36,103 nucleotides of DNA, taken from NCBI GenBank assembly GCA_030950105.1, contig JAUZRV010000200.1, positions 1-36,103 on the forward strand. Direction: 5' to 3'. The notes beneath the pieces were generated by a model. The model had not been told where the DNA came from. It searched no databases and worked only from the letters and a program-made list of their open reading frames with translations. The stretch comes from Rhodobacterales bacterium. GTDB taxonomy: Bacteria; Pseudomonadota; Alphaproteobacteria; Rhodobacterales; Rhodobacteraceae. The translations under genes were made by a program, and so were the position numbers. Shown in pieces: positions 13,656 through 35,168 of the stretch; position 1 is the stretch's first letter; each line of letters starts with the position of its first letter.

Positions 13656-14561
13656 GTGACGAATAGTATTCACAATTCACGAATAGCGGCGCAACCCGGG
13701 GGGGGCAAGGCCACCGGTATCGCAGAGAATACGGGCACGAAATACGATCGCCGCACCCTTACCTATGCCAATAGTTTTGACAGCCGGTGGACGTCTATTG
13801 TCATCCATGCAATTGAGTGGATGACAGGTAAGTTGGTGATTTTACAAAGAATTCGCAAATTTGAGAAAACCGAAGTGCCAACCGGCCTGTCGTTTTGGCG
13901 GGCGGCGTTGGATACCATGGGGATCGCGCTTGAAACGCCGCAAAGCCAACTTGATAATATACCGCTTTCCGGTCCGGTTGTGATTGTCGCAAATCATCCC
14001 CACGGTCTTGTTGATGGCATGTTGATGGCCGAATTGATTGGCCGTCGCCGCGCCGATTTCAAGATTTTAACCCGGTCGCTTTTGACCGGAATTGACGAGG
14101 TGGCATCGTCCTATTTGATTCCCGTTCCGTTCCCGCATGATAAGGATGTGCAGCGTAAAAGTGTTGAAATGCGCAGTGCTGCGATGGCCGTTTTGCGCGC
14201 AGGCGGCGTAATCAGTGTGTTTCCGAGCGGGGTCGTGGCGGCCTCCGAGAGCATGTTTGGTCCCGCGATTGAACAGGATTGGAATGTTTTTACAGCGCAA
14301 ATGATCCGGCGTTCGGGGGCGACCGTGGTTCCGATACATTTTACCGGCGCCAATTCAAGATGGTATCAAATTGCGAACCGGATCTCGGCGACGCTTCGGC
14401 AGGGATTGTTGTTACATGAAATTGTGCATTCTATGGATAAGCCGCAGGCACCGGTTGTGGGTAACCCGGTGAGTGAAATTGATTTGCAGCGTTTGGAAGC
14501 TGATCCGCGTGGTTTTATGGCTTGGCTGCGAGGGCACACCCTGGGGTTGGGGCGGGATTAA
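13656..14561 (+). CDS. 1-acyl-sn-glycerol-3-phosphate/lysophospholipid acyltransferase family protein
   Basis: PVVIVANHPHGLVDGMLMAELIG (NHxxxxD-type motif), VISVFPSGVVAASE. Confidence 0.85.
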   Translation: MTNSIHNSRIAAQPGGGKATGIAENTGTKYDRRTLTYANSFDSRWTSIVIHAIEWMTGKLVILQRIRKFEKTEVPTGLSFWRAALDTMGIALETPQSQLDNIPLSGPVVIVANHPHGLVDGMLMAELIGRRRADFKILTRSLLTGIDEVASSYLIPVPFPHDKDVQRKSVEMRSAAMAVLRAGGVISVFPSGVVAASESMFGPAIEQDWNVFTAQMIRRSGATVVPIHFTGANSRWYQIANRISATLRQGLLLHEIVHSMDKPQAPVVGNPVSEIDLQRLEADPRGFMAWLRGHTLGLGRD

Positions 14562-14787
14562 GTGCGCTTCTGGACGTCGCTTGGCCGGGTATGGTGTCTC
14601 GAAGCGGGTATTGATTTATGGGCTGAAAAATGGCTACGACACCAAAATCAAGCGGCATTTTGGAAGGCAGAGGGCCAATTTTGTTGATATGTCTATTTGA
14701 TTCGAAAAATAGTTAAAATTAGTAGTCCTTCATGAATTGGTTATTTAACGGGGTTAGGTGTCGTGGGCATCGATAAAGGACCCTCCC

Positions 14788-17322
14788 ATGTTGCTAGCCT
14801 CTCGTCTCAAAAATATCCAAATTTCTCGCGCTCTTGTATTTGTTTCGGCTGTTCCTCTCTTGATTGCGCTGCTTCTTACCGTTTGGGGGGGCATTGACTA
14901 TACCCACACCGCAAGCGACATGGGGCGGCTGCAAAAATTGGTTAACCCGATCGCATTGTTGAGTGATCTTGTGCATGAGCAGTAAAAAGAGCGTGGGGTA
15001 ACAGCGGTATTTATTGGCAGCGAAGGGCAGAAGTTTGGCAAGGAGTTAGCCGCGCAACGCGTTGAAACCGACGCAAAAACCGACCTTCTGCTTGCGCATT
15101 TGGAGGAAAATGATCTCGCCAAACTGAATGTCGATCTGGCGCGCGCAATGAAGGGTGTTCTGGAACTGATTGTCCAACGTGATGAAATTCGAACGCGTGT
15201 GGATTCCGGCGGTATTCCGGGGGATGAAGCGATTAACTATTATACAACGGTGAACGGTGAAATCCTTGATATGATTCAATCGGTGTCGCGGCTTAGCTCT
15301 GACAGTGTAATTACCTCGGGTATTACGGCCTTTTCGGGGTTTTTAATGGCAAAAGAACGGGCGGGAATTGAGCGCGCAATAGGATCGCGAGGATATGCAA
15401 AGGGTCAATTCACGAGCGAGGAATTGGCGGAGCTTTATGCACTGATAACGGTGCAAGACGCGTATTTCGGAATTTTTACCCTCAACGCAACTGAAGAACA
15501 CGTTAAACAACTTGATGAGTTTATGTTGCTTCCGGTGGTGCGTAAGGTGGAAAATATGCGCGAACTGGCATTTTCCAATGGCTATGACGGAGACATATCT
15601 GCCTATTCTGGTGCTGACTTTTTTGAAGCACAAACCGGCAAAATCAATGCGCTGAAAGATCTGGAAAGCCTTCTATCACGGGATTTGTCGGCCTTGATGG
15701 CTTCTGAGTTTCGGAGCGCCAAATTTCAGCGAAATATCATGGTTTTCATTATGATTGTTGCCCTTTTGATCGCTTGCAGTGTGACCTATTTCCTTATCCG
15801 AACGATTAGGTCAAACTTTGGCACTGTGTTGGCATCTGCGAGCGAGATGGCGGCGGGGAATCTTGAGGTCGAACTTCCTCCTGCGACCAACAATGAATTG
15901 GGGCAAATCGTTGTGGTCTTGACGCAACTTCGAGACAGTATTCTTGAAGGTAAAAAAACCGAACAGGAAATGCGTAAAGCGGAACTACGGGAGCAGGAGC
16001 GGCAAAGGGATGCCGAGCGCGCAGAGGCCGAAGCCGAAGCGAAGCGCGCGGCGGAGCGAGATGCGATAGCGGCAGAAACTCGTGAGCGTGAACAAACCGC
16101 TGCGCAAGAAATTTCAATTGTTGTTGCCGCTTGTGCACAGGGCGATTTTAGTCAACAGCTTGAAACGGCGAATAAAAAGGGCGTGTTTGCGGACATTTGC
16201 GATGGTGTAAACCAAGTTTGTGAAGTTGCAAACTACGGGTTAGGGGAAATCAAGATGTCGCTGGAAGCATTGTCACGCGGAGATTTGACTCACCGGATGG
16301 AGGGGGGATTTCTCGGCGTTTTTGATGAAATCAGAAACACCGTGAACACGACGGCACAAAGCCTTGCAAAAAACATTTCACAGATAGATCAAAGCAGCAT
16401 TTTGATCAGGGCGTCGACAACAGAAGTAGCCGAAGCTGCCGGAAGCCTTGCTACGCGAACCGAACATGCGGCTGCCACTCTGGAGCAAACGGCTGCGGCT
16501 ATTCAGGTGCTGTCGGGTTTGGTTTCCTCAACGGCGAATTTATCGGCAGCTGCCAATGTCGAAGCCGCTAGTATTCAAGAAATGACCGAAAGTGGCGATG
16601 AAATTGTTGCTTCTACGGTTGAGGCAATGCATGCAATCCAGTCTTCTACGGCGGCAATTGGCAAAACAATAACCTTGATAGATGATATTACTTTCCAAAC
16701 AAATCTATTGGCTTTGAATGCTGGCGTTGAAGCGGCGCGTGCTGGCGAAGCGGGGCGTGGCTTTGCAGTGGTGGCCTCTGAAGTGCGAGACCTTGCCGCC
16801 CGTTCTTCAGATGCGGCGCGTGAAATATCTGCCCTTATTGCGGCCAGTGAGGAACAGGTAAATAATGGCGTGTCTATGGTGGATCAAACCGGAGCCGCGC
16901 TTAAATCAATATCGGCCGGTGTAACTGGGATTGCGTCCCAGATTGCGGAAATTTCACATTCTGCAGAAGAACAATCGAATAGTATTGATGAGATCAACCT
17001 TGCCGCCAAACAGTTGGATCAAACGACCCAGCAAAATGCAGCAATGTTTGAAGAAACCACAGCCACCAGTATTGCGCTGCAAGAGGAGACAAATACATTG
17101 GCTGATGTGATTTCAGCGTTTGATATCGGTCAAGGGCGTTCACAGGAAGATGCCGTTGTTTCAAACGACGAAACGCCCTTGGGTCGTATTCGAAAAGCCG
17201 AGAAAGAAGTAGCAGCCGTCAATGTGCCGCAACCAAAAACGGTTAGTCAGATGCGCTCGGCAACCAATTTGGCCGCGGATTATGAAAACAACACAGATTT
17301 GGACGGTTGGGATGAGATGTAG
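14788..17322 (+). pseudogene. Methyl-accepting chemotaxis protein with probable nitrate/nitrite-sensing (NIT) ectodomain; in-frame TAA at 14983-14985
   Basis: ORFs 14758-14985 and 15100-17322 are in the same frame; [19 protein letters not shown] reads through as a NIT-like segment; canonical tip [35 protein letters not shown]. Confidence 0.8.
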
Positions 17323-17350
17323 GGGGCCGAATCCGACGTCGATATGTGTT

Positions 17351-18226
17351 TTAACGCGTTGCGACAGGTTCATCGCCTCTGTAATCGTAAAATCCGCGCC
17401 CGGTTTTTCGACCGAGCCAACCCGCCTCAACATATTTTGTGAGTAATGGACAGGGGCGGTATTTGGTGTCTGCCAAACCGTCATGCAGCACGTTCATAAT
17501 CGCCAGACAAGTATCGAGCCCAATAAAATCGGCGAGTTCCAGCGGGCCCATCGGGTGGTTGGCGCCAAGGCGCATAGAACTGTCGATGGACGAGACATTG
17601 CCCACACCTTCATAGAGGGTATAGACCGCTTCGTTGATCATCGGCATCAGGATGCGATTGACGATAAAGCCGGGGAAATCTTCGGCGCTGGCAGAGGTTT
17701 TCCCAAGCCGTTCAACAACTTCATGGCAGGCCTTAAAAGTGGGTTCATCGGTGGCAATACCACGAATAAGTTCAACAAGTTTCATCACCGGAACCGGGTT
17801 CATGAAGTGAAACCCCATAAATTTTTCGGGGCGGTCTGTTCTGCTCGCCAGGCGGGTGATCGAGATCGACGAGGTATTGGATGTCAGGATCGTGTGTGGT
17901 TGCAGGTGCGGCAGCAATTCATCGAAAATTGATTGTTTAATTTTTTCGCGTTCGGTTGCCGCCTCGATCACCAGATCGGTGGCACCGAGATCGGATAGGG
18001 CCAGAGTTGTGGTGATGTTTTTCATCGCAGCATTTTTTTCGGCGAGAGATATTTTTTCGCGGCTCACCTGGCGATCAAGGTTTTTGTCAATCAGAGCAAC
18101 CGAAGCGTCCAATGCATCGGATGATATATCGGTTAACAAGACTTCGTAGCCGGCCAAAGCCATCACATGGGCGATTCCGTTGCCCATTTGTCCTGCGCCG
18201 ACAATGCCGATTGTGTTGATGGTCAT
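17351..18226 (-). CDS. 3-hydroxybutyryl-CoA dehydrogenase
   Basis: IGIVGAGQMGNGIAHVMALAGYEVLLTDIS Rossmann motif; GFHFMNPVPVMKLVELIRG; GPLELADFIGLDTCLAIM. Confidence 0.93.
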   Translation of the reverse strand: MTINTIGIVGAGQMGNGIAHVMALAGYEVLLTDISSDALDASVALIDKNLDRQVSREKISLAEKNAAMKNITTTLALSDLGATDLVIEAATEREKIKQSIFDELLPHLQPHTILTSNTSSISITRLASRTDRPEKFMGFHFMNPVPVMKLVELIRGIATDEPTFKACHEVVERLGKTSASAEDFPGFIVNRILMPMINEAVYTLYEGVGNVSSIDSSMRLGANHPMGPLELADFIGLDTCLAIMNVLHDGLADTKYRPCPLLTKYVEAGWLGRKTGRGFYDYRGDEPVATR

Positions 18227-18386
18227 GGCGATACCCCTTGTTGAATTCGCCTGACAATAGGGCGCGTAGGTATCTGCCTGCAAGGGTTAGAGGTGGTTAA
18301 AATATAGGTCAAATGCCAGCATTAGCGAAATCGAAACGGTTTTTTGCGAATCTGTTCATGGGTGAGTAATATAAAAGGTGGGTGAG

Positions 18387-19214
18387 ATGACCTATGAGAA
18401 CTTGGGCGGCGGGGCCCTCGACTATTTCCCGTGTCGGTATGGTAAATCAAAATTGCTGTTTCGCGGTCCGCGACGCAAATTGGAAGGGGATTATATTGCC
18501 TTTCTGGGCGGGACCGAAACCTATGGAAAATTCATTGAGAAGCCGTTTCCATTTTTGGTGGAAAGGGAGATTGGCAAGACGTGTGTCAATTTTGGCTGGC
18601 TCAATGCGGGGGTGGATGTGTTTTTGAACGATCCGACCATCCTTGAGGCGTCGGCAGGGGCGCGGGCGACGGTGGTGCAGGTGATGGGCGCACAGAATAT
18701 GTCGAACCGGTTTTATGCGGTGCACCCGCGCCGCAATGACCGGTTTTTGCAAGCCTCAAGCCTGTTGAGAACGGTGTTTCGCGAGGTGGATTTTACCGAA
18801 TTCCATTTCAATAAGCATCTTTTACAAACGCTGCAAACTCTGTCAATCGAGCGCTACGAGATGGTGTGGGACGAGTTGAAAAACGCATGGTTGGCGCGGA
18901 TGCAACTCTTGCTTGGGAAAATCAGCGGAAAATCAATTGTGCTGTGGTTCGCTGACCATGCGCCGGAACAGACGGATACGGTTGATGGGCTGGGGCACGA
19001 TCCGCTTTATGTGGATCACGAAATGATCGAGAAAATCCGCCCGTTTGCGACCGAAGTGGTTGAAGTCACCGCGAGTTCAACGGCGATTAAGCAGGGTGTT
19101 GAGGGTATGATATATAGCCAGATGGAAGCACCGGCGGCGGCAGAAATGATGGGTCCAAAGGCGCACTATGAAGCCTCGACGGCGTTAAGTGACGCGTTGG
19201 GTCGGTTGCTATAA
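18387..19214 (+). CDS. DUF6473-like protein, unknown function
   Basis: MTYENLGGGALDYFPCRYGKSKLLFRGPRR...YIAFLGGTETYGKFIEKPFPFLVE; ATGACC start at 18387. Confidence 0.7.
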   Translation: MTYENLGGGALDYFPCRYGKSKLLFRGPRRKLEGDYIAFLGGTETYGKFIEKPFPFLVEREIGKTCVNFGWLNAGVDVFLNDPTILEASAGARATVVQVMGAQNMSNRFYAVHPRRNDRFLQASSLLRTVFREVDFTEFHFNKHLLQTLQTLSIERYEMVWDELKNAWLARMQLLLGKISGKSIVLWFADHAPEQTDTVDGLGHDPLYVDHEMIEKIRPFATEVVEVTASSTAIKQGVEGMIYSQMEAPAAAEMMGPKAHYEASTALSDALGRLL

Positions 19215-21960: not shown

Positions 21961-22806
21961 TTATACGCGGGTTAGTACCCAATCGAGCGCTCGCGTTGGC
22001 AATACGCGTTTCAGCGCGCCCATGATATAGGTCACCGTGGTGACATAATAGCGCGGTTTCGGTTTTTTTGCTTCAAGCGCGTGAATTAGTTTTTTGGTAA
22101 CGGCAGAAGCGGGCAATTCGAATGTATCGGGTTTGGTTTTCTCGTCATAGAGCCGATTGAGCAGGGTTGTGCGGTATTCCCCGGCGCGGGGCGAGTTTTC
22201 CCAATCAATCCAGCGCTCAAAATGCGGTATTGAATTTTGGCGGATATCCGAGGTCACCGGACCGGGTTCAATCAGGATCACCTGAATGTTGGCATCCTGC
22301 ATTTCAAGGCGCCAAGTATCGGTGAGACCTTCGATGGCGAATTTCGAGGCGCTATAGGCAGCGCGCCATTTCATTGTGACCAGCCCGAGAACCGAAGAAT
22401 TATTGATAATGCGACCGTGCCCTTGCGCACGCATGGCGGGAATGGCGGCGCGGGTCAGATCGTGCCAGCCAAAAACATTCACTTCGAAAAGGGCGCGTAA
22501 ACCGTCACTTGGCAGATCTTCGGCAGCACCGGGAAGGGCATATGCCCCGTTATTAAAAAGGGCGTCGAGGGTGCCACCGGTTTCTGCGAGGACACGATCA
22601 ACGGCGTTCTGGATTGATGCCGGATCGGCGTAATCGAGGGGAAAAGAGTTGAGACCCTCGGCGCACAAGCGGTCGCAATCTTCGGGTTTGCGGCAGGTGG
22701 CAAAGACCCGCCAGCCGCGTTTGGCGAGGCCGTGGGCGGCGTCATAGCCGATGCCACTTGAGCAGCCGGTGATCAGGATGGATTTTTGGCGCGTTTGATT
22801 TGTCAT
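21961..22806 (-). CDS. Short-chain dehydrogenase/reductase
   Basis: ILITGCSSGIGYDAAHGLAKRGWRVFATCR; catalytic Ser-YSASKFAIEG. Confidence 0.92.
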   Translation of the reverse strand: MTNQTRQKSILITGCSSGIGYDAAHGLAKRGWRVFATCRKPEDCDRLCAEGLNSFPLDYADPASIQNAVDRVLAETGGTLDALFNNGAYALPGAAEDLPSDGLRALFEVNVFGWHDLTRAAIPAMRAQGHGRIINNSSVLGLVTMKWRAAYSASKFAIEGLTDTWRLEMQDANIQVILIEPGPVTSDIRQNSIPHFERWIDWENSPRAGEYRTTLLNRLYDEKTKPDTFELPASAVTKKLIHALEAKKPKPRYYVTTVTYIMGALKRVLPTRALDWVLTRV

Positions 22807-22862
22807 GAGGAACGATATGGTGCGCGGCCCGGCAAATGGCAAGGCGGGAAACCTTGTGGTCT

Positions 22863-23453
22863 TCAGGCCTTCTTGCGCCCGAACGAAAAAACCTTGGACA
22901 TCCATTTTTTATCTTCAGGCGGGTGGGGCACGTATTTGTCCATTTCGGTTTCGATATCGACGCCGTCTATGACTTCGCTGCCATTTTGAACGCGCTGGTA
23001 GAGGTAGTCGGCAATTGGCAAGATGGCCGTGCGATAGGCATCATCGGAGAAGATCTTAATGGCGACATCTTCGAGGTCAAACCAAATCGTTTCGGCGTCT
23101 TTTTCTTCGCTCAATCCGGCAACAAGGCGGCACAATTCGTCGATGCGTGCGACATCGCCGCCAAAACAGGTGTTGGAATCACAGGTATGTTCTTCGGCGA
23201 TTTGGCCGCCAAACAGTTCGATAATGCGAATTTCAAGCATTTCGATGAAGCTATCCCATTTTCCGGTAAAGGTTTTGTCACTGATCAATACCGGCGGGCG
23301 CGGCAGCATTTGCACCGACACCACCTTGAGACCCAAGGCGCGGGCGGTCAAGGCATGGCCCGCTTCGTATACGGAAAGGCGAAACGAAAGATCGGCACAG
23401 CGCGCTTCGGCGGCGGTCGTCGGGGCGCGGCTTGCGGCGGTTTCGGAATACAT
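22863..23453 (-). CDS. Stand-alone FtsH/M41-peptidase-like domain protein with degenerate zinc motif (YEAGH)
   Basis: RLSVYEAGHALTARALG vs HEAGHA of M41; RIIELFGGQIAEE vs LLGGRAAEE; TCFGGDVARIDELC vs TTGASNDxxRATxLA; no AAA+ domain; start codon abuts the stop of the dynamin-like gene. Confidence 0.6.
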   Translation of the reverse strand: MYSETAASRAPTTAAEARCADLSFRLSVYEAGHALTARALGLKVVSVQMLPRPPVLISDKTFTGKWDSFIEMLEIRIIELFGGQIAEEHTCDSNTCFGGDVARIDELCRLVAGLSEEKDAETIWFDLEDVAIKIFSDDAYRTAILPIADYLYQRVQNGSEVIDGVDIETEMDKYVPHPPEDKKWMSKVFSFGRKKA

Positions 23454-24962
23454 TTATTCGGCTTTCTCGTTTGCAGTCTCTGCGGGTGTTTCAGTCAGTG
23501 TTTCCACCACAGGGGATTGGTCTTCGATCACCGCAGCGATTTTTCCGGACGGGTCGGCGTAGCGGTCGTTCAAGCTCTGGATATGGGTGGCGACGGTTTC
23601 GCGCACCAGACGCAGCTTTTTGGCGGCGCGTTTGCTCCACCCGGCGGGTTCAGTGCTGAAAATCGAGTGGAAGGCGCCGGCGCTTTTGAGGAAGGCCCCT
23701 TTGAGGTTGAGATCGACCTGACCATATTTTTCGGCCAACGGCGCAGCGACGCGTTTGGCAACCACACCGCGGACCCAATAGTGGAATGATACCAACAGGA
23801 TGAGCGCGCCAATGCCGCCAACGGCGATGTCAAACAGGTGGCTGTTGATCCACGGCAGGGTGAAAATCTCGAAGGAAGGCACCCATTTGAACGTGATCGC
23901 GGCGGCAATGGCGGCCGCGATAAGCAGGCCAGCGGCAATGCCGTCACCGATCAAAACACCCCGGCGCCAACGGGCCTTGGCGTCGCGCAATTTGGGCAGA
24001 ATATCGTGTTCAAGTTCGTTGGCCACGGTTTCGAGCACCGAAACGATGCGGTAATTGCGCTGAAGCTCGACTTCGTCCATGCGGTCGATGATTTTCTTGA
24101 GGTCGGCATCGCGTTTGGCCTGAAACCGTTCGCGCAGAGCCATATCGGCAATCGGGATCGCGGCATCTTCGTTGTAGATAGTGTAGAATTGCCCGCTTGT
24201 CAGGCCGGCCTGTGCCATGGCGCGTTGCCATGCGCCGGTGATTTCTTCGGGGTTATCTTCCTTGGCTGCGGTATCTATCTGATTGAGAATATAGAGAAAT
24301 TTCGACGCATCCGTGCGCGAAACCGTGCGCGAAACCAGATGTTCCAACGTGTCCTGCATGGCACCGGGTTCGGGGTGGCGGGCATCAAAGAACACCAGAA
24401 CCAGATCCGAGAGATCGAGGATGTGATCGGTGATGCGCAGGGTCGAGGTGCGTTGATCATCGGCGTCAAAACCGGGGCTGTCGATGATGATCTTGCTTTT
24501 GATGCGTTCATTGCTGGTGGTGCGCAGTTGCAGGTAGCTCTCGATATGTTTGCCTTCGCCCTGCGCCACTTTTTCAATCTCGTGGGAAATGCGGTAAAAC
24601 GGAAACCGTGGATCGGCATCAAGCGCGGAACCGGGCAATGTTTGGTTGGCGGCAGTGGTGGCGGCGCGGTGGCAAATCACGGTGAATTTGTCATCCACCG
24701 CCTGATTGCCGGTGCTTTGCAGCGTTTCGCCAACATAAGAGTTGATAAATGATGATTTACCGGCGGAAAATGTGCCGAGAACCGAAATCAGCGGCCACCA
24801 CGAGATGCGCGAGGCCAGCGATGTGTCACGATCCAGAAGGCCGGTGCGATAGAGGAGCTGATCAAATTTGTAGTAGGTCGGCAGGACCTCAAGCAGCGCC
24901 GGATTTTCAACGGAAAGGTGTTTTTCCAGGCGGTTCAGGCGGTTACTAAGAAACGAGCTCAT
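23454..24962 (-). CDS. Dynamin-like GTPase with two C-terminal-half TM segments
   Basis: G1 GTFSAGKSSFINSYVG, G3 IDSPGFDADD, G4-like ILNQIDTA; hydrophobic GIAAGLLIAAAIAAAITF and IAVGGIGALILLVSFHYWV. Confidence 0.85.
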   Translation of the reverse strand: MSSFLSNRLNRLEKHLSVENPALLEVLPTYYKFDQLLYRTGLLDRDTSLASRISWWPLISVLGTFSAGKSSFINSYVGETLQSTGNQAVDDKFTVICHRAATTAANQTLPGSALDADPRFPFYRISHEIEKVAQGEGKHIESYLQLRTTSNERIKSKIIIDSPGFDADDQRTSTLRITDHILDLSDLVLVFFDARHPEPGAMQDTLEHLVSRTVSRTDASKFLYILNQIDTAAKEDNPEEITGAWQRAMAQAGLTSGQFYTIYNEDAAIPIADMALRERFQAKRDADLKKIIDRMDEVELQRNYRIVSVLETVANELEHDILPKLRDAKARWRRGVLIGDGIAAGLLIAAAIAAAITFKWVPSFEIFTLPWINSHLFDIAVGGIGALILLVSFHYWVRGVVAKRVAAPLAEKYGQVDLNLKGAFLKSAGAFHSIFSTEPAGWSKRAAKKLRLVRETVATHIQSLNDRYADPSGKIAAVIEDQSPVVETLTETPAETANEKAE

Positions 24963-25111
24963 GATGGTGTCCTCTGCGGATTCTGGTTCGGGCAGTATAG
25001 GGCGTTTCGCGGGATTGTTGAACAACACATTGCCCTACTACGCGCGGCACTTCGACTTGTTATGTTGTGTTCCGGCGGTCGTATTGGTCGCGGCAACCGG
25101 AACACAATGGT

Positions 25112-25813
25112 TTAGCGATTGGCGGCGGCAAGGTTGCGCAATTCGGCGGCTTTGGCCGGTGCGATGGATTGCAACACATTGATCAAGGGCATCGCTTGTT
25201 GGGTGTTGCCGTTTGATATCAATTGCTTGGCGGCCATGTGATAATAGGTGCCAGCATCATCAAAACGGCGTTGCGAGAAATATAAATTGCCAAGCTCACC
25301 AAGGACATCGACATTTTCGGGGTTGGCGGCGGCCATCGCTTTATACATGGTTTCGGTTTTGGCAATGTCGCCGTTCCAATAGGCCTGACGGGCCTCGTTG
25401 CGCAGGGCCTCGAGATCGGCGGCGGGCGTCGGGGCGGTGGTGTCGGCAGTATCCGCGTTTGCCGCCGTCGTAGTGGACGGTGTAGAAGGTGTGGTTTCTT
25501 GCACGGTTTCCGCTACGGTTGCTGACATGGTTGCGGTTGGTTCGACAACGGCGTTGGCAACCGGAGTCTGGATCGGTTGGGCGGTGTCGGATTCGGTGTC
25601 TTCGTTCACAACGACCTGAGGGGCGGGTTCGGGCGCGGTTTCGGTTGTCTCGGCCCCGTCGTCAGGGGTGTTTTCGGCGGCCATTTCGGCGCTTTCACCA
25701 CCAAACCACGGCCAGCCGATCATCGGCAGGACTGTGTCACGGTTAAAAAACACGACGGCGGCAGCGGCGACAACGACGTAGATGAGGACCAATCGTAAAA
25801 AGGGCATAATCAT
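25112..25813 (-). CDS. N-terminally membrane-anchored TPR-like protein with Thr/Pro/Ala-rich linker
   Basis: LVLIYVVVAAAAVVFF anchor; EALRNEARQAYWNGDIAKTETMYKAMAAANPENVDVLGELGNLYFSQRRFDDAGTYYHMAAKQL TPR pattern. Confidence 0.75.
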   Translation of the reverse strand: MIMPFLRLVLIYVVVAAAAVVFFNRDTVLPMIGWPWFGGESAEMAAENTPDDGAETTETAPEPAPQVVVNEDTESDTAQPIQTPVANAVVEPTATMSATVAETVQETTPSTPSTTTAANADTADTTAPTPAADLEALRNEARQAYWNGDIAKTETMYKAMAAANPENVDVLGELGNLYFSQRRFDDAGTYYHMAAKQLISNGNTQQAMPLINVLQSIAPAKAAELRNLAAANR

Positions 25814-25840: not shown

Positions 25841-26461
25841 TTATTTGGCGTAGATCGCGCGGGCGAGGGTATCAAGCTCGGCGGCGGCTTTGCCATTCGG
25901 TTCTTGTTCAAACACGGCCAGTCCTTCGGAAAAAGAGCGGCGGAAGGCGAGGCGCTGCACCATGCGCGGGCTGAGCGCGACAATCGGGTCGAGCATTTCA
26001 AGCGCTTCCATGGTTTCGGCATTTTCGCGTGATTTCGGGTGCGGGTCGGCGCGGTTGATAAAGGCAAGGACGGGGGGCATTTTGCCCTTTTTGCGTTCCT
26101 CGGTGATGATACCAAGGAAATGCTGCGTGGCCCAGATATCGGCCTGCGACGGGGTCACGGGAATAACGATGCGGTCGCAAATGCGGATCGCGGCGCGCAG
26201 GGCATCCATATCGGAGGTGCCCACATCAATCAGCCAATCATTTTTGGCGCCGGTGGCTTTGGTCGGTAGCTTGTGCACGACTTTGAGGGCCGGTTCCACG
26301 GCGTCTTCTTCGCGAATGTCGGCAACGTCGGTCACGGTGCGTTGCGGGTCAAGATCACAAACGGTGACTTTTTCGCCTTTGGATATGCGCCACATCGCCA
26401 TATTGAAAACGATTGTGCTTTTGCCGGTGCCGCCTTTGAAGTTGGCGTAAAGAGTCATCAT
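25841..26461 (-). CDS. ParA/MinD-family P-loop ATPase
   Basis: Deviant Walker A FKGGTGKSTIVFNMA; CDLDPQRT; WLIDVGTSD; VIPVTPSQADIWAT. Confidence 0.9.
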   Translation of the reverse strand: MMTLYANFKGGTGKSTIVFNMAMWRISKGEKVTVCDLDPQRTVTDVADIREEDAVEPALKVVHKLPTKATGAKNDWLIDVGTSDMDALRAAIRICDRIVIPVTPSQADIWATQHFLGIITEERKKGKMPPVLAFINRADPHPKSRENAETMEALEMLDPIVALSPRMVQRLAFRRSFSEGLAVFEQEPNGKAAAELDTLARAIYAK

Positions 26462-26482: not shown

Positions 26483-27268
26483 TTAGTCGCGTGTGGGGGC
26501 GGGCAATTGCGTATTCGGCAGCTCGATTTTTTGCCAACCTTGCGGCACTTGGAAGGCCGTGGGATTGACTGCGCCGACAACGATGTTTTCGAGGCGGCGG
26601 GTGTCACCATTGGCCAGAGTTTCGCGCACGACGACGCGTAATTCGGGGTCAAACCACCAATCGCCATTTGCGACGGGTTGACCGGGGATCGTGGTTTGTG
26701 TGGTCCAGTATTCGGTGCGGCGGCCATTCAGATCGCGCATGGATTGAAACGACATGATCATTTTTGCGCCGTCAGGGGTTTCTTGCCGCAAGGCGCGGCG
26801 GCGGGTAGAATCCCAGAGCAGAACCGTTGGCGCGGTGTTGGGGGCCGTCGATAAATTCCAGCGCTCAACCGCAATGCCGTTGACGGTATCGGTGCCACTG
26901 CGTTGGCAGCTTGGCGATTCTATCTGACCGGGGCAGGGGTTGGTATAGGCGTCGGTGGCGGTCGCGGGCACGGCGGGGCCGATCACCTCCATATAGGTGC
27001 GGGCAGCGGGATCGAGAATATACATTGCGCCAATTTCGGGGCGCAGGATCTGAATGATATTCTGGCCTTCGCTGACAAATTCGAGGCGCATGTTCTGACC
27101 TGATTTCACCACGGTGCCGGTTGTTTCGGGTTGGCCAGCACGCGCATGCAGGGCGGTGGCCGAATAGGAAAGGGTTTGCTGGGCCGCAAGGGGCGTGGCG
27201 GGCAGGACCGTCATAGCAACCGATATCAAAGGGAACATCACGGCAGAAACGATGGTTTTGATCAACAT
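26483..27268 (-). CDS. Secreted protein of unknown family
   Basis: Signal peptide MLIKTIVSAVMFPLISVAMTVLPATPLAAQQ; ends 21 bp before parA-like start. Confidence 0.7.
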   Translation of the reverse strand: MLIKTIVSAVMFPLISVAMTVLPATPLAAQQTLSYSATALHARAGQPETTGTVVKSGQNMRLEFVSEGQNIIQILRPEIGAMYILDPAARTYMEVIGPAVPATATDAYTNPCPGQIESPSCQRSGTDTVNGIAVERWNLSTAPNTAPTVLLWDSTRRRALRQETPDGAKMIMSFQSMRDLNGRRTEYWTTQTTIPGQPVANGDWWFDPELRVVVRETLANGDTRRLENIVVGAVNPTAFQVPQGWQKIELPNTQLPAPTRD

Positions 27269-27336
27269 ATCCGGGGCCCTCTTTGATTGATTTGTGACGT
27301 ATTCATGGCGCATTTTTGAAAGGAAATTAAGGGGTT

Positions 27337-27386: not shown

Positions 27387-27941
27387 TTAGTTAGTGGCTT
27401 CTGCTGTTGGCTCTTGAACGTCGGCGGCAGGCGCGTCTGCAGGAGCAGCGGCAGCACCGGGCATTGGGCCCCAAGCCGGGTTCCAAGGCATGTTGTTATA
27501 GCCGTTGCCACCGTTCATGTTGTTATAGCCGTTGCCGTAACCTTGGCCCTGACCTTGGCCTTGGCCTTGAGCTTCACTTTGGCCTTGGCCTTCGGCGGAA
27601 CCGGTGAAGCCAAAGTTGAACGAACCAGTGCCGTTGCCATTGCCGTTACCGTTGTTGGACCCGTTGAAAGGACCCCAGTTGTTGCCCCAACCGTTGTTGC
27701 CACCCCAAGGTGTCCAGTTGTTGCCGCCCCAACCGTTGTTGCCGTTGTTGCCCCAACCGTTGTTGCCACCCCAAGGTGTCCAGCCATTGTTGTTGTTGAA
27801 AGGGCCCCAGTTGTTGCCGCCCCAACCGTTGTTGTTGTTATAGCCGCCGTTATTTGGGCCCCAGTTTTGAGCGGATGCTTCAAGAGCTGCAACACTTGTA
27901 AGGCCTGCGGCCAGAACGGCTGTCATGATGATCTTTTTCAT
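27387..27941 (-). CDS. Secreted Asn/Gly/Trp-rich low-complexity repeat protein
   Basis: Signal peptide MKKIIMTAVLAAGLTSVAALEASAQ; repeats of NNGWGGNNWGPF / TPWGGNNGWGNN and (QG)n. Confidence 0.8.
   Translation of the reverse strand: MKKIIMTAVLAAGLTSVAALEASAQNWGPNNGGYNNNNGWGGNNWGPFNNNNGWTPWGGNNGWGNNGNNGWGGNNWTPWGGNNGWGNNWGPFNGSNNGNGNGNGTGSFNFGFTGSAEGQGQSEAQGQGQGQGQGYGNGYNNMNGGNGYNNMPWNPAWGPMPGAAAAPADAPAADVQEPTAEATN
27678..27783. repeat. Perfect 40-bp direct repeats (27678-27717 and 27744-27783), in-frame spacing 66 bp
   Basis: Both read gttgttgccccaaccgttgttgccaccccaaggtgtccag. Confidence 0.9.
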
Positions 27942-28078
27942 TGGTAGTCTCCTAAATGTGTCCCGGATTATGTGTGGACGGTGGCAGTGGGACATATGCC
28001 GTTATCCAAAAAATGTGCCGTGATTGGCACGGTCGTATATTTGTGCCGAAATCGGCGGGGGCTTAATCTCTTTTCGGT

Positions 28079-28792
28079 TCACCAGAACCCGAAGGGAGAA
28101 AAATTCGTTGAGGGCGACCCGAAACCGGGAAAACCGCCCATAGAGGGGAAACCGCCGTAGCCGTTTCCGGGGAAATTATTGAAGCCGCCCGGAAAGCTGT
28201 TGAAGCCGCCCGGAAAACCGTTGTTCGAATAGGGGCCAAAGCCGTTTGACCCATATTGTTGACCGTAAGGTTGGCCGTAATAGGGTTGGTTGTAGTTTTG
28301 GCCGTTTTGCTGGCCGTATGGTTGGTCATACCCTTGCCTGTATTGCGGGTAGGCAGTGGAGTTTTGTGTGGGCGTTTGAACGCTGCGGGGTTGGCCCATA
28401 TTGGCGGGCGCAAAAGCTTGTTGTCGGGGTTGCCCAAGCTGCTGTTGTGGTTGCATCTGCGGATAGGCCGGACGCGCGGGTGCGGCGGGGTTGGTGTTGC
28501 GCCCCGTGGCCAGCAATTCGTCAAGGTTGTCCGGCGCAAAGCGGTTGTCGGCGGCCACAGGCGCGTTATCTGGCGCGATTGTGTGGGGTGTTTTTACCGA
28601 CGGTTCAACGTAATATTTCGGCTTTTTCTGCGGGTCCATAACCGGTGCAGAGGAAGCCAAATTCTGGTTATTTGTGTTTGTATTCCATGCGTTAGACCCT
28701 TGTTCCGCTCCTGATACAGGAGAGAGCGTTGCGATGACTGCGACCGCAGCTATGGGCAATGAAATGGAAAATTTCACTTTATTCTGTTCCAT
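28079..28792 (-). CDS. Secreted Gln/Pro/Asn/Gly/Phe-rich low-complexity protein
   Basis: Start MEQNKVKFSISLPIAAVAVIATLSPVSGAEQ; tail NGFPGGFNSFPGGFNNFPGNGYGGFPSMGGFPGFGSPS. Confidence 0.75.
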   Translation of the reverse strand: MEQNKVKFSISLPIAAVAVIATLSPVSGAEQGSNAWNTNTNNQNLASSAPVMDPQKKPKYYVEPSVKTPHTIAPDNAPVAADNRFAPDNLDELLATGRNTNPAAPARPAYPQMQPQQQLGQPRQQAFAPANMGQPRSVQTPTQNSTAYPQYRQGYDQPYGQQNGQNYNQPYYGQPYGQQYGSNGFGPYSNNGFPGGFNSFPGGFNNFPGNGYGGFPSMGGFPGFGSPSTNFSPFGFW

Positions 28793-28805
28793 ATTTTCTC
28801 TCCGA

Positions 28806-29477
28806 CTATCGGTTGGGCGCTGGCGAATATCCGCCATATCCGGGGGGGGGACCATAGCCATTTGGCGGTCGATTTGGTCCAAAGGCGGGGTTGTAGCCGC
28901 CCCATTGTTGCATCTGTGGTGGCATTATCTGTCCAAAATACGGTCCGGTGTTGCGCATGTTTCCTTGATTGAACAGAGGGCCATTCTGAAAGACGGGGGG
29001 GCGATATTGTGGTTGGTTGGCAAAGCCGGAATTGGTGCCGCGATTGTTCATATTGGGCGGGGCGACGTAACCGGGGAAAAAGCCCGGTGTGGTCACCATA
29101 TTTGAGGCGGCAGCGGCGGCCTGATTTGCCCAGCGCTGTCGATTCTGGTTGGCATTGGCGATGTTCGCGGCAGTATTGGGCGGGCTAATGGGGGCCACAT
29201 TTGTTCCGGTATTGGCAGGCGTATTTTCCCCGGGCGTGGCGCGATTTTGCATCCAATAGGGCAACGCTTGCGCATTGTTTTGCGGATTTGCCCAATTTGG
29301 GCGCGCGGGTTGCTGCTGGCGTTGTTGCGGTTGAACGGGTTGCGGCGGGGCAATGATGATTTGATACGGGCCGGGGAGAGGGGCAACCGGCGGTGTCACC
29401 TGTGCCTGCGCGATTGTGGCCAGTTCAACAGCCATGCCAAAGCCCAGAATTGCGGCGAGTTTTGTAAGTCTATGCAT
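28806..29477 (-). CDS. Secreted Pro/Gln/Asn-rich low-complexity protein
   Basis: Signal peptide MHRLTKLAAILGFGMAVELATIAQAQ; PPQPVQPQQRQQQPARPN...; 10 bp downstream of RND permease. Confidence 0.75.
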   Translation of the reverse strand: MHRLTKLAAILGFGMAVELATIAQAQVTPPVAPLPGPYQIIIAPPQPVQPQQRQQQPARPNWANPQNNAQALPYWMQNRATPGENTPANTGTNVAPISPPNTAANIANANQNRQRWANQAAAAASNMVTTPGFFPGYVAPPNMNNRGTNSGFANQPQYRPPVFQNGPLFNQGNMRNTGPYFGQIMPPQMQQWGGYNPAFGPNRPPNGYGPPPGYGGYSPAPNR

Positions 29478-29487
29478 GCTCTGTTCC

Positions 29488-32400
29488 TTACTCGCTTGCG
29501 GTGCTGCCCGGTTTTTTCAACCGGATGCCGCGTCGTCCCGAGGCCTTGGCGGCTTTGGGCTTGGGGGGCTTGGTGGGTTTGGCTGCTTTTGCCGCTGATT
29601 TGGGCGCGGCTTTCACTTTTGGCTTGGCTGCCGCTTTGGAGGCTGGCTTGGCTTTCGGCTTGGGGGCGGGTTTGGCTTTCGGCTTTGCTGCCGCTTTTGC
29701 CGCTGGCTTAACCGCAGCGGGTTTAACGCTCGCTGGCTTTACAGCTGCGGGTTTAACCGCTGCGGGTTTTTGAACTTTCGCCGGGGCCGAGATAACCGGA
29801 GCAGGGCGGGGTGCTGCGGTTTGGGGGGCGGCCATGACGCTTACGGTGCGCGGTTTGGAACCGAACAGGCCAATGAACCACTGAACGCCACCGGATATCA
29901 ACAACCACAGGCCTTCGCCGAGCATCAGGATTGCGTCCATGATCCCGCCAAGAAAGGCGCGGCTTTTGGGCAGGGAACCACCGCCGTGGGGGCGATAGGC
30001 AGGGGCGGCGGTTTCGGTTGCAGCAACCGTTGCGTCTGTGTCCGGTGACCCGTCGCCATTATCGGTAAGCGCCTTGCGGAAGGTCACACAACCGAGCGGG
30101 ATCACGATCAAGGTAAGCAATGTCGACACCATGCCGCCCATCATGAGCGAGATCGCCATGCCTTCAAAAATCGGATCCGAAAGGATCACGGAGGATCCCG
30201 CCATCAACGCCAATGCGGTGATGATAATCGGGCGGGTCCGGGTGCAACAGGCGTAAACGACCGCATCACGCACTTCCATACCGTCTTCGACCGCGTGGCG
30301 CGAAAAATCGACCAGCAGAATCGAGTTGCGCACAATTATCCCGGCGAGCGCGATGAAACCGATCATCGAGGTCGCGGTGAACGGCGCGTCAAACAACCAG
30401 TGGCCGGGTACAATGCCAATCAGGGTAAGCGGGATTGGAGCCATAACAATGGCGGGCATGGTGAAATTGCCGAACTCCCAGACCACAAGAATATAAATCA
30501 GGATCAGCGCGACACCGAATGCAATGCCCATATCGCGGAAAGTGACATAGGTAACGGTCCATTCGCCGGTCCACTCAAGCGCGGATTGCAGGCTGTTTTT
30601 GGGGGGACCGGTGAAATTTGTATCCACGGCGACACCATCGGGGGCAATGTAATCTTCAAGCAGACCTTCGACTTCGAGGATGCCATAAATCGGCGCGCCA
30701 AGCTGGCCTGCGACCTCGCCGGTGACGTATTCAACGGCACGCAGGTCTTTGTGATAGACCGGCGGATCAAGTTGGAAGGCCTCGAAATAGCCAAGTTCGG
30801 TGAGCGGGATCATGGTGCCCGAGGCAGTCGGAATTGGCAGTTGCCCGAGGCGGCCAAAATCACCGCGCAGCGCCAGAGGCATTTGCAGATAGATATATTC
30901 GGGTTCAAGCGCGCGTTCGTTTTTCACATCGCCAAGGATCATCCCGCCCATGGCCATTTCCAGTTGGCGATTGATGTTTTCAACCGACACACCACGGCGC
31001 GACGCCTTTTCGCGGTTCACCACAAAACGCCAGCTATCATAGGGGGCGTGCAGGAAGGTATCGGAATCGACGATTGTTTCGGCTTTGGCGAACATTGCCT
31101 CGACATCACGCGCTACCTGACGGCGGGTCGCACCATCGGGGCCGTAAATCTCGGCGACCATGGTTTGCAAGACCGGCGGTCCGGGGGGCATTTCCACCAC
31201 TTCGAGGTTGCCACCGGCGGCGGCTGCGATCGGGGTCAAGGCATTGCGGGCCAAAACCGCAAGTGCGTGCGAGGACCGTTCGCGATCGCCTTTGTCGGTT
31301 AATTGCACCTGAATGTCGGCTTGCCATGGACGATCCCGCAAATAGGTATGGCGCACCAAGCCGTTGAAGTTAAACGGGCTTGCGGTGCCGGTATAGGATT
31401 GCAGGGCCACGACCTCGGGAATATCCATCAGTTCCTCGGCAAGACGCGCCACGACATTGGCGGTCACCGGAAGGGCGGTGCCCTCGGGCATGTTCAGTAC
31501 GACGTTGAATTCCGGTTTATTGTCGTTTGGCAGCATTTTCACCGCGACGCTTTGGGTGCCGAACATCGACAGGCTCAGGGCGAAGACGAACAACAGGCCG
31601 ATGCCGAAAATCCAGCCTTTGAGGCGGCTGTCGAGGAGCGGCAGCAACATACCTTTGAAAAAGTGGTTGAGTTTGCGTTCCTGACGGTGTTCCGCCTTTT
31701 GCAGCTTGTCGAGCTGTTTCATCGTCGGTTTGATGCGCTGGGCGAGCCAGGGCGTGAATATAAACGCGGCAAACAGCGAGATCAGCATGGCCACAGACCC
31801 AAGGGCCGGAATCGGGGCCATATACGGTCCCATCATGCCGGTCACAAACCCCATCGGCAACAAGGCGGCGATGACGGTGAATGTGGCCAAAATGGTCGGG
31901 TTGCCGACTTCGCGCACCGCATCGACATTGCATTGGTCAGAACATTCGCCCTTCATCAACCAGCGACGGTAGATATTTTCAACCACCACAATGGCATCAT
32001 CCACCAAAATCCCGATGGAAAATATCAGTGCGAACAACGACACCCGATCAATGGTAAAACCAAGCAGGTAAGCGCCAAATACGGTGAGCAGGATCACCAC
32101 AGGGATCACGATCAACACCACAATGGCGGCGCGTAGACCCAACGCATACCAGATCAACAAGGTGACGGCGCCGGTGACCACGAACAATTTAAAGATCAGC
32201 TCGTTCACTTTTTCATTGGCGGTTTCGCCGTAATCGCGGGTCACTTCGACATGGATATTGTCGGGGATCAGGCTGCCTTTGAGGCGCTCGATGTATTCCA
32301 GAACATCTTTGGTCACCTGCACGCCGTTGGAGCCGGCCTTTTTGGCAACCGCGATGGTCACGGCGGGGGCGCCAATGGGCGCGCGGGTGTCGGTGATGGC

Positions 32401-33327
32401 TTCGCCTTCTTCGGCGTGGACGCCATAGGAGGGGCCTGTATAATAGGCGACCATTGTATTGGCGTCGTCGGTGCCTTGGGTCACAAGGGCAACGTCGCGG
32501 ATATAGACGGCCTGGCCCTGGCTGTCGCCAATCATCAGGTTTTCGATGTCTTGCACCGACTGTAGGAAAGCGCCGGTATAAAGGGAAAATGTGGTTTGGC
32601 CGGTTTCCACATTGCCGACGCCACGTTCGGAATTGGCGGTGCGAATGGTTTGGGCCAATTGATCAAGACCAATACCAAACCCCGCAAGGCGTTCAGGAAA
32701 AACCTCGATGTTATAAGCATTCGAGCGGCCACCGACGATAAAGCTCTGCGAGGTGCCGCCGATTTCCTTGAGGCGCTGCATCACATCAAGGCCAAGCGTG
32801 CGCATCGACGCCTCGTCGACCTCGTGGGACCACATGGTAAGGGTGACAACCGGCACATTGTCGATGCCTTTGGGGCGGATCAGGGGTTGGGAGACACCGG
32901 GCGGGATACGATCGAGATTGGATTGGATCTTGTCGTTCAGTTTGACCAAGGACGGCCCGAGTTCTTCGCCCACTTCGAATTGCACGGTGACCATCGCGCC
33001 GTTGCGCTGCGACATGGAATAGACGTGTTTAACACCGGCGATTTCCGACATCATGCGTTCGAGCGGATCGGTGGCAAGCGAGGCCACCTGATCGGCAGAA
33101 GCGCCATGATAGGAAAAGAAAATATCAACCATCGGCACCGAGATTTGCGGATCTTCCTGACGCGGTGTCAGAACCAGACCCATCAACCCGAGGGCAAGGC
33201 AGGCAATCAGCAAAAGTGGCGAAAGCGGCGAATTTATGAAAGTTTTGGCCAAACCGCCCGCCAAGCCGAGATTGTTGGAAAACTCGGGGCTTGCACCGTC
33301 TTTTGCGTCTCTATTGTCTGCCATCAT
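29488..33327 (-). CDS. RND efflux transporter permease with extra C-terminal hydrophobic segment and Lys/Ala/Pro-rich tail
   Basis: TM4 GILVDDAIVVVENIYRRWL, MIGFIALAGIIVRNSILLVDF; 1279 aa; tail AAPQTAAPRPAPV...KPKAAKASGRRGIRLKKPGSTASE. Confidence 0.95.
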   Translation of the reverse strand: MMADNRDAKDGASPEFSNNLGLAGGLAKTFINSPLSPLLLIACLALGLMGLVLTPRQEDPQISVPMVDIFFSYHGASADQVASLATDPLERMMSEIAGVKHVYSMSQRNGAMVTVQFEVGEELGPSLVKLNDKIQSNLDRIPPGVSQPLIRPKGIDNVPVVTLTMWSHEVDEASMRTLGLDVMQRLKEIGGTSQSFIVGGRSNAYNIEVFPERLAGFGIGLDQLAQTIRTANSERGVGNVETGQTTFSLYTGAFLQSVQDIENLMIGDSQGQAVYIRDVALVTQGTDDANTMVAYYTGPSYGVHAEEGEAITDTRAPIGAPAVTIAVAKKAGSNGVQVTKDVLEYIERLKGSLIPDNIHVEVTRDYGETANEKVNELIFKLFVVTGAVTLLIWYALGLRAAIVVLIVIPVVILLTVFGAYLLGFTIDRVSLFALIFSIGILVDDAIVVVENIYRRWLMKGECSDQCNVDAVREVGNPTILATFTVIAALLPMGFVTGMMGPYMAPIPALGSVAMLISLFAAFIFTPWLAQRIKPTMKQLDKLQKAEHRQERKLNHFFKGMLLPLLDSRLKGWIFGIGLLFVFALSLSMFGTQSVAVKMLPNDNKPEFNVVLNMPEGTALPVTANVVARLAEELMDIPEVVALQSYTGTASPFNFNGLVRHTYLRDRPWQADIQVQLTDKGDRERSSHALAVLARNALTPIAAAAGGNLEVVEMPPGPPVLQTMVAEIYGPDGATRRQVARDVEAMFAKAETIVDSDTFLHAPYDSWRFVVNREKASRRGVSVENINRQLEMAMGGMILGDVKNERALEPEYIYLQMPLALRGDFGRLGQLPIPTASGTMIPLTELGYFEAFQLDPPVYHKDLRAVEYVTGEVAGQLGAPIYGILEVEGLLEDYIAPDGVAVDTNFTGPPKNSLQSALEWTGEWTVTYVTFRDMGIAFGVALILIYILVVWEFGNFTMPAIVMAPIPLTLIGIVPGHWLFDAPFTATSMIGFIALAGIIVRNSILLVDFSRHAVEDGMEVRDAVVYACCTRTRPIIITALALMAGSSVILSDPIFEGMAISLMMGGMVSTLLTLIVIPLGCVTFRKALTDNGDGSPDTDATVAATETAAPAYRPHGGGSLPKSRAFLGGIMDAILMLGEGLWLLISGGVQWFIGLFGSKPRTVSVMAAPQTAAPRPAPVISAPAKVQKPAAVKPAAVKPASVKPAAVKPAAKAAAKPKAKPAPKPKAKPASKAAAKPKVKAAPKSAAKAAKPTKPPKPKAAKASGRRGIRLKKPGSTASE

Positions 33328-33359: not shown

Positions 33360-34511
33360 TTATTCGCCGGAGACCAAACTGGCCGGTGGGTTGAGGATGA
33401 CTTGTTCGCCGCCCGAGAGGCCGGAAACAATCGAGATGCGCCCATCAGGAAGCGGGTAGCCGACGCGCACGATGCGCAGGCTTGGCGCGCCATTTTCAAG
33501 CACAAAGACCGAGGGCAGCGAACCGCGCCAGATCAGGGCTTCGGCTGGAAGCGCGGGTTCGGAACGGGTGGGCACCGAAAGGTCGGGCACCGTGACCTCG
33601 ACATACATGCCGGGACCACCGGGGGTTTCAAACGGCAGGTCGAATTTGACCATCACCGTGTGGCGGCCGGGATCGGCCACGGGGAATATTTGCGCCACTT
33701 TGGCGTCAACTGTAACGCCGCCGAGATCAAGACGCGCCGGCACGATCATGCCTTCGGTCAGGCCAGCAGCAAGGCGCACGGGCACGTCGGCCTCGATACG
33801 CAGATATTCGGTGAAGGCGACGGTCATCAATGGCATGCCCGGTTGCACGGTATCGCCGACCTCGACATTTTTGCGGATCACGACACCGTCAAACGGGGCG
33901 ATGGATTGTGCATTGCGCAGACCGGCATCAAGAGCGTCAAGATTTGCCTGCGCCTGAAGAACCGCGGTTTCGGCCTGTGAAATACCGGCACCGGCCCCAT
34001 ATAGATCGGCCTGACGTTCCACATTGCTGTTGGAGAGGCCCATCTGGTTGGAAAACCCACGGGTAAAGAATTGGTCGAACATCGACGGCACGCCCATGCC
34101 CGGAATTCCGGTAAGCGAATTGGTGCGCGGCGAATAGAGTTCGCGGGAATATTGCATTTGCGAGTTGCGCAAAGCGGATTCGGCTTGCAGGATTTGCGCC
34201 CCTGCGGCGCGGCGCTGGGCCTGAAGGGCGGTGTCGTCGATCATCACCAGAACATCGCCTTTGGTGGCGTCATGTCCTTCGATGCCCGCAAGGTAGGTCA
34301 CGCGGCCGGGAATTTGGGCGCTTAGGGTGACTTCTTTGTAAGGAACGACCGTGCCACCAATGGTTGCACTGCCGCCGGACATGTTCGAAGTGACGAAAGC
34401 GGTCTCAAAATCGGTGGTGGATTGCTGCGCAGACAGGATTTGCGCCGGTGCAGCCGCCAAAGTAGCCGCTAATACCCACTTAAAGCCCAAAGTTGAAAAC
34501 TGATTCGTCAC
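33360..34511 (-). CDS. RND efflux periplasmic adaptor (MFP) subunit
   Basis: IPGRVTYLAGIEGHDATKGDVLVMID lipoyl half-motif, APFDGVVIRKNVEVGDTVQPGMPLMTV second half; GTG start, 32 bp upstream of permease. Confidence 0.93.
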   Translation of the reverse strand: MTNQFSTLGFKWVLAATLAAAPAQILSAQQSTTDFETAFVTSNMSGGSATIGGTVVPYKEVTLSAQIPGRVTYLAGIEGHDATKGDVLVMIDDTALQAQRRAAGAQILQAESALRNSQMQYSRELYSPRTNSLTGIPGMGVPSMFDQFFTRGFSNQMGLSNSNVERQADLYGAGAGISQAETAVLQAQANLDALDAGLRNAQSIAPFDGVVIRKNVEVGDTVQPGMPLMTVAFTEYLRIEADVPVRLAAGLTEGMIVPARLDLGGVTVDAKVAQIFPVADPGRHTVMVKFDLPFETPGGPGMYVEVTVPDLSVPTRSEPALPAEALIWRGSLPSVFVLENGAPSLRIVRVGYPLPDGRISIVSGLSGGEQVILNPPASLVSGE

Positions 34512-34718: not shown

Positions 34719-35168
34719 TTAAAATCCGAAAGGCGTGTTGCCCCACATATAGGACATCGGATTTGAAAACGCGTTGGTGGCATTGCTGATGTCATAGGTC
34801 ATGCGGTTCATATTGCCGACCAGACCATTCATCGAATAATTCAGGGCCGCAACCGATTGGTTCATATCCCCGATATCGTCGGTCATGCCGGAAATATTGC
34901 GGTTCATGCCATTAATGCTGTCGTTCATTTCGGTCATGTTCTGGTTCATGACGACAAAATTTTCGCTCATGCTGTGCACATCTGTTGTCATGCTGACCAA
35001 GGTGGTGTTCATGGTTTTGATGCTCTCGTTCAATTCAACCATGATATCGGTCATGGTGAACACCCGCAGGGCCATCCCATACATAACCCAGGTAAATACG
35101 GCCATGACGATAAGGATACCCGCCGTTGTCAAAACAACGAAGCCGCCGCTACTTGCGCGTCTATACAT
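34719..35168 (-). CDS. Single-pass membrane protein with methionine-core heptad coiled coil
   Basis: SD AAGGAG 6 nt before ATG; MYRRASSGGFVVLTTAGILIVMAVFTWVMYGMAL anchor then 14 contiguous heptads beginning MTDIMVE. Confidence 0.8.
   Translation of the reverse strand: MYRRASSGGFVVLTTAGILIVMAVFTWVMYGMALRVFTMTDIMVELNESIKTMNTTLVSMTTDVHSMSENFVVMNQNMTEMNDSINGMNRNISGMTDDIGDMNQSVAALNYSMNGLVGNMNRMTYDISNATNAFSNPMSYMWGNTPFGF

Follow-up and report, generated by a model that had tools for sequence, protein, structure and literature searches.

FtsH (MEROPS M41) holds a protease domain, which is the part of the protein that forms the hexameric ring, fused to an AAA+ domain and an N-terminal transmembrane (TM) region. 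HEXXH zinc sites, like the one found in this domain, ordinarily need both His residues. The plant pseudoproteases FtsHi1-5, associated with the Ycf2-FtsHi motor, exhibit the same fold and a changed HEXXH motif, and they keep the AAA+ domain while losing the second His, the Asp, and with them most of the ligands, as the HExxHx74D of E. coli FtsH is replaced by TEVGVx80Y, NEAAMx78T, REAAVx74S, or WAAGRx81E (PMC11266112). The window analysed here, a stretch of 36,103 nucleotides from a member of the Rhodobacterales, encodes a 196-aa protein (22863..23453, minus strand) that, judging from its family profile and predicted fold, is a stand-alone M41 domain with neither an AAA+ domain nor a TM helix. 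It shares with FtsH the fold and the order of the motifs (the xEAGH helix, the GGxxAEE motif, and the helix with the third-ligand Asp), while it differs in the presence of a Tyr instead of the first His, in three invariant Cys residues, in the spacing between His and Asp (66 residues versus 74 in FtsH), and in a sequence MLPRPPV that replaces the PRG.ALG strand of FtsH. Contrary to FtsHi, the only ligand changed in this M41-like protein is the first His.

In an earlier note on this DNA, the gene was regarded as one half of a two-gene module, together with the dynamin-like GTPase gene that precedes it. The pair instead closes a larger conserved cluster, with about 11 genes, whose products recall other described systems. 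The window GTPase resembles the bacterial dynamin-like proteins IniA, LeoA, BDLP, and DynA in its Dynamin_N domain and in the predicted long helices with a TM hairpin that follow it, although it represents a subfamily of its own, linked to this putative sulfur-globule cluster, and lacks the fused tandem of DynA. An orphan ParA-family ATPase in what seems to be an inclusion-associated cluster is reminiscent of the positioning of organelles by McdA/ParA-type systems, even though no McdB-like partner has been identified in the cluster. Lastly, the sulfur globule proteins SgpA-D from Allochromatium vinosum are secreted, repetitive, and structural proteins of dsr-type sulfur oxidisers, which is also the putative nature of one product of the cluster (GN), as most members of its family match Pfam PF17228 (SGP). 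In Allochromatium, the coat proteins of the globules are periplasmic after export, oxidation of the stored sulfur by rDsr takes place in the cytoplasm, and sgpD seems to be transcribed as a unit of its own (PMC10386293), which differs from the clustered arrangement of GN. A literature search of limited scope returned no description of a dynamin/ParA/M41 cluster tied to sulfur globules, nor any text connecting these globules with dynamin or ParA in this sense. It is proposed that the cluster probably serves sulfur-oxidising Alphaproteobacteria of the dsr type to form protein-coated sulfur globules, to enclose them, and to place them, and that the M41-like protein would be a cytosolic partner, with an altered protease site, of a dynamin/ParA assembly at the inner membrane.

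The M41-like ORF runs from 23453 to 22863 on the minus strand, immediately after the stop codon of the GTPase ORF at 23454, and the junction reads TAA-ATG with zero spacer, as previously noticed. The MYSE start is correct, since relatives start with MYTE or MYSD. The three blocks in M41 order formerly recognised from the letters are all present: YEAGHA at residues 29-34, ELFGGQIAEE at residues 79-88, and FGGDVARIDELC at residues 97-108, so that the key residues are Y29-E30-A-G-H33, followed by C91, C96, and D100. The codon for Tyr29, which occupies the place of the first zinc-binding His in HEXXH, lies at 23367..23369 (minus strand). Neither a TM helix, by hydropathy, nor a signal peptide was seen in the protein. 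A predicted SDR ORF (21961-22905, minus strand) overlaps the end of the gene; its true start is probably located downstream, at MTNQTRQKS, and this neighbour is not common to the cluster homologues.

When a single M41-like sequence was used as query, M41 was not recognised by Pfam and NCBIfam, nothing useful was retrieved from PDB, PHROGs, or PADLOC, and the weak Pfam matches to M50 and SH3BGR were discarded as chance-level. A profile of the family, on the other hand, matched only FtsH in the PDB, with a best E value of 0.012 when built from four sequences and of 0.0025 when built from 31. In alphaproteobacterial genomes, the next matches to this profile after the true members were ORFs of the size of FtsH (mostly 600-780 aa), with E values down to 3e-8 per genome. 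The AlphaFold model obtained with 31 sequences (pLDDT 82.7, pTM 0.80) led to the same family, as the first 37 Foldseek matches in the PDB were all FtsH, FtsHi, YME1, or AFG3L2 (best E 2.3e-4, TM-scores by query mostly 0.5-0.6), with FtsHi chains among the best. The M41 resemblance claimed from the letters has therefore been borne out by both sequence profile and predicted fold. No AAA+ match was found by Pfam in the 196-aa ORF, which sets it apart from the fused architecture of FtsH.

Homologues were collected from 199 Rhodobacteraceae genomes (one per genus), from a contig scan of 84,980 species, and, by profile, from 395 genomes at the order level and 385 at the class level. The scan yielded 39 loci with an alignment, and nothing with one sequence. 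The motif Y-E-[AS]-G-H, in which residue 31 is either Ala or Ser, appears in 39/39 distinct homologues; one of the two patterns used in the 84,980-species scan held VYE, which favours members with Tyr, while the profile searches, independent of this pattern, revealed no His version either. Cys19, Tyr29, Glu30, Gly32, His33, Cys96, and Gly99 are invariant in all 39 distinct sequences, and Cys91 and Asp100 are so save for one masked row (Asp100 in 38/39). The three invariant Cys residues (Cys19, Cys91, and Cys96) fall outside the FtsH pattern. Close pairs of the gene show dN/dS values of 0.02-0.14, and the altered motif is thus maintained under purifying selection and is not decaying. The Tyr substitution with retention of the Glu, the second His, and the Asp is consequently no private mutation of this genome.

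The protein may be a pseudoprotease or an altered-metal enzyme, as previously put forward: the first His is changed, whereas the Glu, the second His, and the Asp are kept, unlike in plant FtsHi. As these three residues are retained and a Cys is found one helical turn before the Asp, an altered metal site is possible, in which Cys96, predicted by the AlphaFold model to lie on the same helix as Asp100, may take part. One may go further and consider that the protein is a working metallohydrolase, in which Tyr29 or Cys96 takes over from the first His in a rearranged site, and that it cleaves or processes a partner from the cluster. The preservation of the general base Glu30, His33, and Asp100 in every readable sequence, which is not observed in FtsHi1-5 (PMC11266112), and the invariance of Cys96 on its predicted helix shared with Asp100 would suit this possibility. 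Nevertheless, it is considered doubtful in view of the usual need for two His residues in sites of this kind and of the absence of an AAA+ unfoldase to feed the substrate. Since the unfoldase has not been kept, the protein is in any case unlikely to be a processive protease, and a partner with altered protease function is preferred.

The cluster extends in the window from about 35168 to 22863, with all genes on the minus strand, and it is syntenic across Rhodobacteraceae and partly conserved in Magnetovibrio and Rhodospirillaceae. The conserved order is cc, MFP, RND, two secreted Pro/Gln/Asn-rich proteins, GN, OM, ParA, TPR, dynamin, and M41-like. The first gene (34719..35168) encodes cc, a small protein that begins with MYRRASSGGF and holds an N-terminal TM segment and a long coiled-coil-like tail, as read from its sequence and synteny; in other genomes, it directly adjoins the M41-like gene or the dynamin gene. 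It is followed by the MFP (33360..34511), the periplasmic adaptor of the RND transporter, which scores over the cut-off of TIGR01730, and by the RND transporter itself (29488..33327, 1279 aa; Pfam ACR_tran 9.1e-141), assigned also by its hydropathy and its syntenic copies. The transporter extends about 200 aa at the C terminus beyond the AcrB-type core, with an extra hydrophobic segment near 1125-1144, and the syntenic copies range from 1270 to 1363 aa. Two secreted proteins come next, one rich in Pro, Gln, and Asn (28806..29477), with weak homologues beside RND genes, and another also rich in Tyr (28079..28882), with homologues, that ends in SPFGFW. The latter and its relatives end in aromatic motifs (SPFGFW, MPFGFF) and the cc proteins in NPMSYMWG..FPF, which may represent a shared sorting or docking tail.

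GN (27387..27995, with a likely start near 27941) is a probably secreted Gly/Asn/Trp-rich repeat protein, with a signal-like N terminus according to sequence and hydropathy. OM (26483..27313) is a secreted protein that also starts with a signal-like segment and in which two Cys residues are invariant; no Pfam family was found for it, and it is conserved in 28/39 fetched loci. The ParA/MinD-family partition ATPase (25841..26461) was assigned by synteny and by its matches to ParA_partition of NCBIfam (129.5 bits, under the cut-off of 180) and to Pfam CbiA (E 1.2e-10); no ParB gene is found beside it in the window, and this ParA is therefore an orphan. The TPR protein (25112..25813; Pfam TPR_19 E 1.6e-7; syntenic) holds an N-terminal hydrophobic anchor at residues 1-29 as revealed by hydropathy. 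In a dsrA-bearing genome of another family (G869), the OM-ParA-TPR-dynamin core is found at 14080-18726 of its locus with the M41-like gene absent, so that the M41-like protein is not indispensable and has been added to, or lost from, this core. Searches by tblastn of plasmids and phages gave no match.

The link of the cluster to sulfur globules is a strong correlation that relies on GN and on the distribution of dsrA. Within the GN family, 18/21 members match PF17228 at E<=0.1 (best E 8.7e-11), and GN from the window does so at E 0.0084 and 17.4 bits, below the gathering cut-off of 26.7, a similarity that rests on low-complexity sequence. The gene dsrA is present in 18/19 distinct genomes with the module versus 3/38 without it (Fisher 7.5e-11), and in the unbiased sample it appears in 15/199 Rhodobacteraceae, including all four genomes with the module (P 2e-5), although such P values are optimistic and should be taken as guides only, because the genomes are phylogenetically related. 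SGP matches at E <= 0.01 were found in 16/19 genomes with the module and in 0/41 others (Fisher 6e-12, to be read likewise), the 41 including 15 that have dsrA and lack the dynamin gene; among dsrA-positive genomes alone, the figures are 15/18 and 0/15. None was found in 14 control genomes. Over the Pfam cut-off, SGP matches occur in 13/60 genomes, every one of them with the module. A Magnetovibrio metagenome-assembled genome (G914) holds six PF17228 matches on several contigs, the best at 1.8e-24. The genome of the window has dsrA according to the family model, and a run of its ORFs can be read as dsrABEFHCMKLJOPN, with the genes other than dsrA named after their size, order, and sequence starts. 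As 11/15 dsrA-positive Rhodobacteraceae lack the module, this is not needed for sulfur oxidation. The gene soxB offers a weak contrast, being common in the family (18/19 genomes with the module versus 25/38 others, P 0.02), and absence of soxCD was rejected as a marker of globule formers because soxC is present in 10/19 genomes with the module; neither gene strengthens the link to globules.

An unlikely explanation for these data is that the cluster makes some other envelope structure, such as an outer-membrane extension, a vesicle, or an efflux-linked coat, and that its link to dsr and SGP is ecological or phylogenetic. The RND/MFP pair, the secreted low-complexity proteins, and the periplasmic OM would suit a general role in the envelope, and Pfam matches of SGP-type proteins, being of low complexity, can reflect composition. 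However, SGP matches are lacking in the 41 genomes without the module (15 of them with dsrA and no dynamin) and in the 14 controls, and the association persists in the unbiased one-per-genus sample and reaches Magnetovibrio and Rhodospirillaceae. Formation of sulfur globules is still the preferred reading.

The dynamin-like GTPase (23454..24962, minus strand, 502 aa, with an alternative GTG start at 25028) matches Dynamin_N (PF00350) with E 1.5e-13 and 51.6 bits (cut-off 27), and hydropathy shows two adjacent hydrophobic segments at about 334-364 and 372-395, as expected for a paddle or TM hairpin. Its AlphaFold model is of low confidence (pLDDT 63.8, 12 sequences), with weak Foldseek matches to IniA and LeoA, and it is too poor for structural claims. 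A role in defence was rejected: PADLOC matched the GTPase only weakly to LeoA (E 0.0005), with no stretch that passed, and the gene setting is out of keeping with such a role.

Linkage of the GTPase gene with the M41-like gene, as anticipated by the earlier note, is conserved: they are at most 1.6 kb apart in 34/39 fetched loci, in two gene arrangements. The remaining five comprise two loci that lie at the end of a contig and three where cc adjoins the M41-like gene. The arrangement differs in Magnetovibrio and Rhodospirillaceae, where cc separates the two genes and the M41-like gene is encoded on the opposite strand. In the one-per-genus sample, the M41-like gene and full-length dynamin co-occur in the same 4/199 genomes (chance 1.6e-8, optimistic like the other P values), while two further genomes hold remote dynamins only. 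In one of these four (G108), the M41-like and cc genes are on contig 4 and the dynamin cluster on contig 56, both halves being kept. The distances between M41-like proteins and between dynamins correlate (r 0.83), as partly expected from shared ancestry. Hence, none of the outcomes named beforehand as contrary to the proposal (no likeness to M41, homologues mostly with an intact HEXXH, or no linkage with the dynamin gene) was observed, even though no specific evidence has been found for the membrane quality-control role that was also put forward. This same linkage bears on the idea that full-length FtsH of the cell has an adaptor or inhibitor in the M41-like protein, for instance one joining or capping the protease ring to protect or deliver proteins of the globule envelope. 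It shares the fold of the ring-forming domain of FtsH, but its gene is linked to dynamin and the cluster, and ftsH is never adjacent in the loci read, which makes this idea quite improbable.

In the proposed working of the cluster as a sulfur-globule machinery, secreted GN would coat periplasmic sulfur, as suggested by its SGP similarity, and the TM-anchored dynamin-like GTPase would shape the inner membrane bulging around the globule. The orphan ParA, along with the TM-anchored TPR and coiled-coil proteins, would place or segregate the globule, these roles and that of the GTPase being suggested by protein families and synteny, while RND/MFP and OM may serve the envelope side. The M41-like protein would be a cytosolic domain detached from the AAA+ domain and the membrane anchor, acting as a non-processive partner or regulator that may bind the dynamin/ParA assembly. 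A bolder version, rather unlikely at present, envisages a dedicated organelle-type machine in which dynamin, orphan ParA, and TM scaffolds enclose a sulfur inclusion of the periplasm and set its location, and in which the M41 fold, with its Y-E-x-x-H / C-x3-D site, has been repurposed as a regulator responsive to metal or sulfane sulfur. That the M41-like gene is a degenerate pseudogene, or its M41 resemblance fortuitous, is practically discarded, because its invisibility to single-sequence Pfam and NCBIfam searches is outweighed by the profile, the Foldseek results, the dN/dS values, and the invariant motifs.

The enclosure, placement, and inheritance of sulfur globules are poorly understood beyond the coat proteins, and the cluster provides a specific set of candidate genes (dynamin, ParA, TPR, coiled coil, M41-like, and RND/MFP) that is partly present in the genomes of cultured Magnetovibrio blakemorei and Maritimibacter. 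If the proposal is true, a bacterial dynamin would be tied to a defined inclusion. The cluster also exemplifies an M41 domain that exists without an AAA+ motor and retains a consistently altered metal site. Elsewhere in the window, on the plus strand, are also found genes for a methyl-accepting chemotaxis protein with a nitrate/nitrite-sensing NIT domain (15100-17322; Pfam 5.2e-37) and for a DUF6473 protein (18378-19214; Pfam 2.3e-124).
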